Below are positions 56,958-64,000 of a stretch of DNA of 64,000 nucleotides, piece by piece; the stretch's first letter is position 1; each line of letters begins with the position of its first letter. A program made the translations under genes and the position numbers. Location of the stretch: positions 62,001-126,000 of the forward strand of contig JAFLSQ010000001.1 in assembly GCA_022510865.1 (NCBI GenBank), read 5' to 3'. Below the pieces are notes generated by a model. That model searched no databases. It was not told where the DNA came from and saw only the letters and a list, made by a program, of their open reading frames with translations. The DNA comes from Treponema sp. GTDB lineage: Bacteria; Spirochaetota; Spirochaetia; Treponematales; Treponemataceae.

Positions 56958-58027
56958 ACAAGGAGGAGCGGCGTTTGATTGGGCGCATATCAAAAGATAT
57001 GATTAGGATACTTCTGCTCGCCTTCGTAAGCAGGAGTGCATGCGAAAATCCACGGAGCGAAGTGTGAGAGATGCCGTGAAAAATCTTCCCCATTTTTTCC
57101 GCGTTTCTTGCGCCCCTGTTTTGCGGAGTGCTTTTCCGCTCTTGCACCGTTAAGGAAGATTCCGTTTTCGGACGACTCGTACATCAAGGCAGATTTGCTC
57201 CAACACGATGCCGCCCTCCACACGAAAAAAGGAAAACGCGCACTCGGCGGCATCACAGAATGGCTAGATTCGGAAAAACACATATACTACAAATATAACA
57301 ACACCGCCAGCGGAGGGTATTCTTGTACAGGAACGTCCAGTTCATAGAAACCTAACGAAAGAATTGCATTGGTCTTGAACTGACTGCCTTATGAACAGAA
57401 CAGGAACTGACGGTTAGATTAAACTATTCATTTTTTTACAAGGAGCTTCCTCCTCATGTCAAAAAGATTTGCCATTTTATGAAAAGATTGATTTAAAGTT
57501 TCTGCAAACTCCGCAACATTGGCAGAAACGGTTACTACACAAAGAGAAGCACCTACCCCGATGTCCGCGTTATCTTCCGTCTAAAACCGCCAGAAAGCTG
57601 GTAGGGCAAAAAGTACTGGAGGATCATCAGGCAATGCCATAAATGACATAAGATCTAACTAATCAAAATCGTGATTATTAGATCAATCAATAAAGGAGTT
57701 CGATTAACATGGCAAAGCTCCAAAAAGCAAACCAGACAATATTTACGCAGCCCCATTGTCGGACGGAACATATACATTTGGAAAAAAACTGCATATGAGG
57801 AAGTTATTTAGACAACGTAAAATCGCACATTTTTCTCAAGACGACAGGCGTTTCGCTTCAAATAAAGCAGAGATGGACTTTCACCCACCATCCTAGATGG
57901 GATTCACTACTTTTCTACCCACAAAAACACCGTTTTATGCTATAATCAAATATCATTTATATACAGTAATTTGTGTATATCAGATTGTTGTAACTACAAA
58001 ATGCAATTAAGTCTAGGAAGTATAAAT
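56958..58027. other. Decayed, partly AT-rich region without an intact gene
   Basis: About 1.07 kb has no convincing ORF. Base composition shifts to AT-rich from about 57350. A 13-bp inverted repeat with one bulge (GATCTAA and TTAGATC ends, about 57649-57681) and a ribosome site (AAAGGAG) precede a broken small ORF at 57710. A TATAAT and a 7-bp inverted pair (57959-57980) precede the TIR-like pseudogene. Confidence 0.55.
57710..57896 (+). pseudogene. Possible frameshifted Imm26-like immunity gene remnant
   Basis: An ATG after AAAGGAG opens MAKLQKA. A frame change then reads KPDNIYAAPLSDGTYTFGK, which resembles the start of Imm26-type immunity proteins (a short block with IPLxDGxYxFG). The frame continues to a TAG near 57896. 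Family assignment rests on a short stretch only. Confidence 0.3.
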
Positions 58028-58420
58028 ATGACTTATAATTTGTTCATTAGCCATTCGTAGTCTTATTCAGATGAGTATTCAAGGTTAGCAAACCTCTTGA
58101 ATAAAAAACCTGGGTTTTCTTGGAAAGATTACTCTGTTCCAAAAGATGACCCAATTCATAATGCTCCAACTACCGCCAAGCTGAGAGAGGCAATAGAAAA
58201 TCAAATGCGTCCAGCAAGTTGTGTTTTGATTTTAGCAGGTGTTTATGCAACTTATAGCAAATGGATAAATATTGAAATTGATTTGGCAAATAAGATGGGA
58301 AAGAAAATTATTGCAATCGAACCTTTTGGCTCAGAAAGAACATCATTGGTTGTAAAAGAAGCGGCGGATGAGATTGTAGGTTGGAATACAGACGCCATTA
58401 TTAATGCTATCAGTTCGTAG
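58028..58420 (+). pseudogene. TIR-like (MTH538/DUF1863, ThsB-type) gene with an early TAG
   Basis: AGGAAG precedes the ATG at 58028. The frame reads MTYNLFISHS, then TAG at 58058-58060, then SYSDEYSRLANLLNK and continues intact for about 120 residues (KDDPIHNAPTTAKLREAIENQ, CVLILAGVYATYSKWINIEIDLA, KKIIAIEPFG). FISHSW is the usual start of this TIR-like family, so the TAG sits where a Trp TGG is expected. Such proteins include ThsB of the Thoeris phage defence system; no ThsA partner is visible in the window. The gene is AT-rich compared with its neighbours, suggesting acquisition. Confidence 0.72.
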
Positions 58421-58461: not shown

Positions 58462-58686
58462 TCAGTATGCAATGACTTGCAGAACATGCGATGAACGTAA
58501 GTCAATCTCAACACAGATTATGAGGTCGCCGAGTTTGCGCTTGTCGTAGTTTTTTGTTCCGCTGGTTGTCTCCTCAATCCAGCCGTCAATGCAAAGGTTC
58601 TGCCTTTTGCAGAAATTGCCGATTTCAAAACGCTGGTTTTCGGCCGTCTGCCTGCCGCTTGAAATGCGGATGCAGCCGTATGTCAT
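58462..58686 (-). pseudogene. Truncated serine recombinase (resolvase/invertase N-terminus)
   Basis: The start MTYGCIRISSGRQTAENQRFE after AGGAAGGAAAC matches the N-terminal catalytic domain of small serine recombinases; the active Ser is in the ISSGRQ block. The match runs to about residue 56 (SGTKNYDKRKLGDLI) and then turns into unrelated sequence before a stop. Intact enzymes are near 190 residues. It is a remnant next to the TIR-like pseudogene. Confidence 0.7.
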
Positions 58687-58752
58687 GTTTCCTTCCTGAG
58701 TTCGTATAGTGCATGGCTCATGTGGATTATAGCAGAGGGTAATGTGCAGCAA

Positions 58753-59002
58753 TCACGGCTTATGCGGGGAACGCACATTGCTTATGGCGTACTGCGCGGG
58801 AAGTTCGTCCTTTTCGGTGAGCGTGCAAAATCACGCGACATCGCCATCTTCCACCGCCGTGAACGCGTTCCCATTCCGCAAAGTCGTTGTCGCGCATTTT
58901 CTGCGCAAGGTGCGAACCCGCCCGCCACGAGCAATGCTCGGAAAGCGCAGCCGCCTTTTCCCAAAACTCATGGTCGCGCATCATCACAAAAATTTCTGTC
59001 AT
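58753..59002 (-). pseudogene. Degraded GNAT-family acetyltransferase
   Basis: The frame starts MTEIFVMMRDHEFWEKAAALSEHCSW and runs to about residue 47 (EWERV). After a one-base shift it continues FTAVEDGDVA, a TGA, then FCTLTEKDELPAQY, which is the expected GNAT strand pattern. The rest of the domain is missing. It overlaps the start of the methyltransferase-like gene stop by 4 nt, so it once belonged to that operon. Confidence 0.6.
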
Positions 59003-62318: not shown

Positions 62319-64000
62319 TTATAAATTCACCCCCCCGTCGCTACAACTAACATCTTTTACAGGGGAACTCCAGCACCAGTATCCACCGCGTGATATTTTT
62401 TTCCACTGCTCTACGGTGCCGGTAAAATTGATTGCGTTGAACGAGGAACAACTAGAGAACGCATAACCTCCTATCTTCTTCACACTGCTGGGTATCTCTA
62501 TGCTTGTAAGCGATGTGCAACCAGAGAAAGCCCAATCACCGATGCTTTCCACATTATTCCCGAGCTTCACGCTTTTTAGCGATTTGCAATGCCAGAACGC
62601 AGAATCTTCGATGCTTTTCACGTTGCTACCTATCGTTATATTTTCAAGTGAACTGCCTTTGAAAACACCTCTCTCGATTTTTATCACAGTCGTGGGAATT
62701 GTGACGCTCTTAAGTGAAGAACAGTTTGCAAATGCCTCTCTCTCAATTACTGTCACACCCTCGGGAATCACGATGTTGCCGGGGATTTTGTCACGATAGT
62801 ATCCAATCAGCTGTGTGCCTTGCAGCCTAAGATATGGTGGAATTTCTTCTGTCACACCAATAATACCATCTGTGCAGCGAATAGTTGAAAAAATCCATTT
62901 GCCTGAATCTGAAACTGCATTCCACTGCTCTTTCGTGCCGTCAAACTGGACGACAAGACTGACGCACCCCTTAAAAGCATTGCTTCCAATTGTTGTCACG
63001 CTTTTCGGAATTGAGATATTTCTGAGTAATGTGCAGCCTATGAATACCTCCTCGCTGATTGCCGTCACGCTTCTTGGAAGCGTGACGCTCTCAAGTAATT
63101 TGCAATCCTTAAAAGCACCTTTCCCGATTCCCTTTACGCCTTTCGGAATTGTTATGCTCGTAAGTGCCGTGCAACCACGGAATGCGCCTGTATAAGAACG
63201 TGTCTCTCCCCCTATTGTTGTCACGCCGTTTGGAATCGTAACGCTTGCAAGTGCCGTGCAGTCCTGGAACATTCCGCTTGGTATAGTTTCAACGCCTTCC
63301 TCAATCGTCACGCTCTCAAGCGACTTGCAATTCCAGAACACATCATAGCCCATGTTCTTTACGCTCCCGGGAATTGTTACTGTTTTTAACCCACTGCCAC
63401 TGAATGCGCCCTCGCCGATATATGTAACGCTCTCGGGGATTGCAATGCTCGTAAGCGACGTACAGCCGTTGAATGCACCCTGTTTATCACTCCCACCTCT
63501 TATTACTGTCACACTGTTAGGAATTTCGATGCTTGCAAGCACCGTGCAGCCCTTAAACGCACTGGAACCGATTTCCTCAACGCCCTTCACAATTGTAACG
63601 TTTTTGAGTGATGTACAACCACTAAATGCCCCGTTGCCGATTTCCTTTACACTTCTAGGAATGTTTACGCTTGTAAGCGAAGTGCAGTTCGAAAAATTGA
63701 TATACGTAACGCCTTCGGGAATCGTTATGCTTTCGAGCGATTTGCATCCGTTCAGACAAAGTGTTTTCACGCTATCAGGAATATTGATGTATGTAAGTGC
63801 CGTGCCACTGAACGCATACTCATCAATTTCTTCAACGCCTTCGGCAATTGTAACGCTTTTAAGCGACAAACAATCGCTGAAAGCACGGCTGCCTATTTTC
63901 GCCACGCCCTCCGCAATCATGGCACTTTTAAGCGATGAACAGCCAGAAAACGCATATTCGCCAATTTCCTTTACACTGCCAGGAATCTCGACGCTTTCAA
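62319..64000 (-). CDS. BspA-like leucine-rich repeat (TpLRR) surface protein, 5' end outside the window
   Basis: The frame is open to the window edge and ends at 62319. It holds more than 18 repeats of about 23 residues of the type FSGCTSLTSIEIPSSVKKIGGYA, typical of Treponema/Bacteroides BspA-like proteins. Two modules with the pattern GTKEQWNAV and GTVEQWKKI, ending in CTDG and CSDG, interrupt or close the repeats. Such proteins bind host or microbial surfaces. Signal and start cannot be seen. A G7 run lies close to the stop. Confidence 0.9.
   Translation of the reverse strand, partial: ESVEIPGSVKEIGEYAFSGCSSLKSAMIAEGVAKIGSRAFSDCLSLKSVTIAEGVEEIDEYAFSGTALTYINIPDSVKTLCLNGCKSLESITIPEGVTYINFSNCTSLTSVNIPRSVKEIGNGAFSGCTSLKNVTIVKGVEEIGSSAFKGCTVLASIEIPNSVTVIRGGSDKQGAFNGCTSLTSIAIPESVTYIGEGAFSGSGLKTVTIPGSVKNMGYDVFWNCKSLESVTIEEGVETIPSGMFQDCTALASVTIPNGVTTIGGETRSYTGAFRGCTALTSITIPKGVKGIGKGAFKDCKLLESVTLPRSVTAISEEVFIGCTLLRNISIPKSVTTIGSNAFKGCVSLVVQFDGTKEQWNAVSDSGKWIFSTIRCTDGIIGVTEEIPPYLRLQGTQLIGYYRDKIPGNIVIPEGVTVIEREAFANCSSLKSVTIPTTVIKIERGVFKGSSLENITIGSNVKSIEDSAFWHCKSLKSVKLGNNVESIGDWAFSGCTSLTSIEIPSSVKKIGGYAFSSCSSFNAINFTGTVEQWKKISRGGYWCWSSPVKDVSCSDGGVNL

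Follow-up and report, generated by a model that had tools for sequence, protein, structure and literature searches.

The DNA analysed here is a 64,000-nucleotide stretch of a Treponema sp. genome, which we call the window; all positions are counted from its first letter. The locus of interest is a gene of the ThsB_TIR family that is interrupted by a single in-frame TAG and lies between the ruins of other genes. Its features are as follows:

57079..57287, forward strand: duplicate, truncated and frameshifted, of a 245-aa ORF whose intact version lies on another contig of the same genome (C72:1398-2135; 91% DNA identity)
58014..58019, forward strand: Shine-Dalgarno-like AGGAAG preceding the ATG, assigned from the sequence
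58028..58420, forward strand: interrupted ThsB_TIR-family gene of 130 sense-or-stop codons plus a terminal TAG, assigned from PF08937, the PADLOC ThsB profile and a TIR-fold model
58058..58060, forward strand: in-frame TAG (codon 11) where homologues all have Trp; the site opens helix A, directly after strand A (FISHS)
58274..58276, forward strand: codon of Glu83, the conserved glutamate at the TIR catalytic position (SKWINIE), 3' of the stop
58465..58752, reverse strand: N-terminal remnant of an Mpi-type serine recombinase (DNA invertase), internally deleted and lacking its C-terminal part

Translation of the frame reads MTYNLFISHS, then the TAG, then SYSDEYSRL and onwards to the terminal TAG at 58418-58420. 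The first-pass annotation, made from the letters of the window, had described a good ribosome site and a frame intact on either side of one TAG. Both descriptions hold: AGGAAG ends 7 nt 5' of the ATG, and the only in-frame stops are those at 58058 and 58418. At the local base composition, the chance of a 119-codon open run is about 8e-5, and the remaining two forward frames over the same interval contain 10 and 12 stops. Translation that ends at codon 11 yields a peptide of 10 residues and removes 119 codons.

The family to which this gene belongs can be recognized by both sequence and structure. With the stop entered as X, the product matches PF08937 (ThsB_TIR) over residues 6-102 with 66.4 bits (E 3.3e-18; the gathering score is 21.2 bits) and the PADLOC ThsB profile PDLC00418 over residues 3-129 (E 1.3e-18). 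In both cases the homology extends across the codon-11 stop. By sequence, the closest solved structure is MTH538 (1eiw, E 2.5e-8), which also comes first by Foldseek, although the two proteins are only 26-27% identical and MTH538 is intact and functionally uncharacterised. An AlphaFold2 model, in which the TAG was read as Trp and 30 homologues were supplied, predicts a TIR domain (pLDDT 88.6, pTM 0.85). The best solved matches of this model are a B. cereus TIR protein (8fz9) and ThsB (6lhy), with Z 14.1, the latter at an rmsd of 2.2 over 113 residues. Pfam, PADLOC and the structure comparisons therefore agree on the MTH538/ThsB-type TIR-like identity first proposed for the gene. Moreover, the glutamate at the catalytic position is present in 33/33 aligned sequences, and by analogy with other TIR NADases we infer a catalytic role for Glu83. 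The gene thus resembles ThsB of Thoeris in sequence family (E about 1e-18), in predicted fold and in this glutamate. It is unlike ThsB in being broken at codon 11, in standing without an adjacent ThsA-type partner and in having relatives that pair with an 8xMP or a caspase-like gene rather than with a SIR2-type ThsA.

A scan of genome_contigs returned 37 related loci, which mostly share 54-73% identity with the window TIR. The residue at codon 11 is Trp in all 36 of these loci that cover the site, and also in L084 and L002. In a reduced alignment of 33 sequences, including the window's, the column consists of 32 Trp and one stop, and none of the aligned homologues has a stop at this position. 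The first-pass annotation had taken the TAG to replace an expected Trp, one base away (TGG to TAG), and had named unrelated residues at the site as the observation that would speak against this; the Trp is invariant across the homologues that cover codon 11, and the claim survives. That a TAG occupies the place of the Trp at codon 11 is accordingly confirmed. A stop at an invariant Trp disables the frame at a position that homologues conserve, which is one mark of a pseudogene.

Elsewhere the frame has been preserved well. It contains no second internal stop and no frameshift and, in about 50 conserved columns (those in which >=90% of the other sequences agree), it departs from the consensus only twice besides the stop, as many intact relatives do. 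Within codons 12-130, 5.2% of random base changes would create a stop, and a neutrally drifting frame could thus quite often remain open through a few per cent of divergence. Since the remainder is conserved, the frame was inactivated recently, unless the TAG reflects an assembly error. Across 200 genomes of the same genus, PF08937 has 17 further matches, and none of them contains an internal stop. The well-kept frame, which makes the loss either recent or not real, and these unbroken matches both count against a pseudogene. No near copy of the gene was found in viral_contigs, on plasmids or in the 200 genus genomes. Synteny searches by DNA and via the neighbouring methyltransferase gene gave no empty site for comparison, with matches confined to the recombinase remnant and small pieces. 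Broken copies of the family do occur elsewhere, at L016, L039, L040 and L041.

NAD+ is the substrate of TIR proteins of the ThsB kind, which convert it into ADP-ribose-type signals or deplete it. In known systems these signals act on a partner: this is a SIR2-type ThsA in type I Thoeris and a TM-macro ThsA in type II (PMC12847820), and type IV is described there, from Rousset et al. 2025, as a TIR, an N7-cADPR signal and a caspase-like protease. Relatives of the window gene hardly ever stand by themselves: the neighbour is an 8xMP (PF24838, 'octameric membrane protein', about 150 aa) in 27 loci and a caspase-like gene (PF00656) in six, and several loci have a second TIR. Within the window's own genus, L002 carries a SLATT-domain neighbour beside its TIR instead. 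Analogy with type II suggests that 8xMP may be a membrane effector. Intact relatives most likely sense infection, turn NAD+ into an ADP-ribose-type signal or deplete it, and act via the adjacent effector, be it the 8xMP membrane protein or the caspase-like protease.

The window gene has no such neighbour. No 8xMP, caspase or second-TIR homologue was detected near it, and a tblastn search of the window with 31 partner proteins gave nothing beyond chance near 57-60 kb, where a remnant might have lain. Profiles for 8xMP and caspase (Peptidase_C14) had no match in the whole genome, in which the window TIR is the sole PF08937 match. A search of the genome for ThsA via its STALD domain was also empty, but so were its controls. 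The ThsA-like partner that the first-pass annotation had suggested looking for thus has no counterpart in the form of an 8xMP or caspase-like gene, in the window or in the genome. Compared with a functional Thoeris system, the locus has neither an intact ThsB frame nor an 8xMP or caspase-like partner. In most of the TIR + 8xMP pairs, the TIR shares 57-74% identity with that of the window; the pairs differ in that the membrane partner is present and, except in L016, the TIR is uninterrupted. The resemblance to type IV Thoeris is of the same kind: in six homologous loci the TIR adjoins a caspase-like gene, and the genus has caspase + TIR clusters, whereas the window TIR stands alone and no Peptidase_C14 gene was found in its own genome.

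The flanks of the gene are decayed. On one side lies the truncated, frameshifted duplicate at 57079-57287, and on the other the recombinase remnant, of which PF00239 and NF009949 match the first 57 residues and a full-length relative exists in L043. The TIR gene itself stands out by composition, with 36% G+C and a GC3 of 30%, against 50% G+C for the window and a GC3 of 58% for a resident gene; this foreign composition fits a transferred gene. Both flanks match contig C72, the second match being C72:21692-21924, which corresponds to window 58637-58872. The 245-aa ORF at C72:1398-2135 belongs to no family that we recognised. Stretches related to the recombinase remnant recur in the same genome, and several species of the genus have them too.

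UAG is an ordinary stop codon in this organism. Both class-I release factors are intact, namely an RF1 type on C59 (GGQ; PQTESQG, with the PxT motif) and an RF2 type (SPF) on C65. TAG terminates 12 of the 48 long non-overlapping ORFs of the window, as well as the TIR gene itself. A CUA anticodon, as a suppressor tRNA would carry, is present in 0/40 tRNAs (ARAGORN on tRNA loci from an Rfam search), a negative that is strong and not absolute, given that the assembly is about 92% complete. Recoding of UAG was considered and set aside on these three observations.

We consider the gene to be an acquired, partnerless ThsB-like TIR gene that was recently inactivated by a nonsense change, that is, a pseudogene, and put the probability of this reading at roughly three in four. 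A stop at a site that is otherwise always Trp, a missing partner and flanking gene ruins together make an ordinary, recently dead gene the most likely account. The gene would have been gained by horizontal transfer, and its operon partner lost, or never brought along, probably before the stop arose. Without the partner, selection on the TIR would have lapsed, and a nonsense change at the Trp codon that begins helix A could then have followed. RF1 would end translation at the resulting UAG after 10 residues, leaving no functional TIR. Three readings had been proposed at first, namely a recent loss, a sequencing error, and a read-through or recoded stop. With the partner missing, the neighbourhood decayed and UAG terminating normally, recent loss is the one best supported; a consensus error ranks second and a leaky or recoded UAG is a remote third.

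The second reading is unlikely. On it, the TAG would come from wrong base calling, from an error in the assembly consensus or from a minority strain, and the organism itself would carry an intact gene. In its favour, TAG is a single base away from the expected codon, and the frame is otherwise conserved. The assembly is metagenome-like and fragmented (145 contigs, 92% complete), and a search for a second genome of the species came up empty. On the other hand, substitution errors are rare in an assembled consensus, and one would need to have hit precisely a partnerless gene within decayed surroundings. The absent partner and the broken flanking genes, moreover, indicate decay independently of the stop.

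A leaky or recoded stop, by which low UAG read-through by near-cognate tRNAs would limit a toxic TIR protein, is very improbable. The frame 3' of the stop is conserved and a U follows the stop; tRNA-Gln(CUG) and tRNA-Trp(CCA), both encoded in the genome, are possible near-cognate readers. A distant relative, L016, likewise has a lone early TAG, at codon 29, and an intact 8xMP. Set against this are the intact RF1, the ordinary use of TAG and the lack, among the 40 tRNAs found, of the suppressor tRNA that the first-pass annotation had suggested looking for; this part of that annotation is without support. In addition, no homologue is interrupted at the codon-11 site and, with the partner absent, there is no clear reason for keeping the protein. 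The stronger version, in which a regulated or leaky stop would serve as a safety that keeps a toxic orphan TIR NADase very low, is less probable still.

What a truly recoded stop looks like can be seen in one of the relatives. In SR1 (Absconditabacteria), genetic code 25 reads TGA as Gly. The SR1 homologue (L032:5001-5378) is a TIR relative that also carries in-frame stop codons, and these are three TGA codons, all where Gly fits. Such a consistent pattern is that of recoding, unlike the one lone TAG of the window gene.

Re-initiation behind the stop, at TTG 58097 or ATG 58205, to give a shorter protein is as improbable as read-through: a GAGG lies 5' of the codon-60 ATG and a start at the codon-24 TTG would give 107 aa, but both products would lack strand A and FISHS, which are found in intact relatives and solved TIR structures, and no relative begins at either start.

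The pseudogene reading has some bearing beyond this locus. The window gene is an anti-virus gene of an already known kind, most likely an ordinary dead one and not a new reading of the code. As such, it may be seen as a textbook example of the turnover of defence genes, from transfer through separation from the partner to loss. It is also a caution for counts of defence genes, since PADLOC and Pfam profiles score a broken gene well above threshold. More interesting than the stop codon, however, is the pairing of this TIR family with 8xMP, which is widespread over many phyla. The two-gene module occurs at L005-L031, L035 and L036 in genome_contigs and at L084 on an IMG/VR contig, with hosts that include Bacillota, Chloroflexi, Aeromonas, an archaeal MAG and others. 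PADLOC has no model for the 8xMP partner, and a literature search found no paper on the TIR + 8xMP pair or on a 'type III Thoeris'.

Several smaller observations concern the relatives and the end of the window. In L016:5001-5393 (a Desulforudis MAG), the codon with the single early in-frame TAG usually encodes Tyr, and the intact 8xMP is adjacent. The TIR + caspase-like (PF00656) arrangement, often with a second TIR, is found at L008, L022, L033, L034, L037 and L038, and clusters of TIR and caspase-like genes resembling type IV Thoeris occur in the same genus at L109, L111, L112, L117 and L118. Finally, the reverse strand at 62319-63998 encodes what appears, by eye, to be a large BspA-type leucine-rich repeat protein (SLKSVTIPEGV...), which runs past the end of the window.
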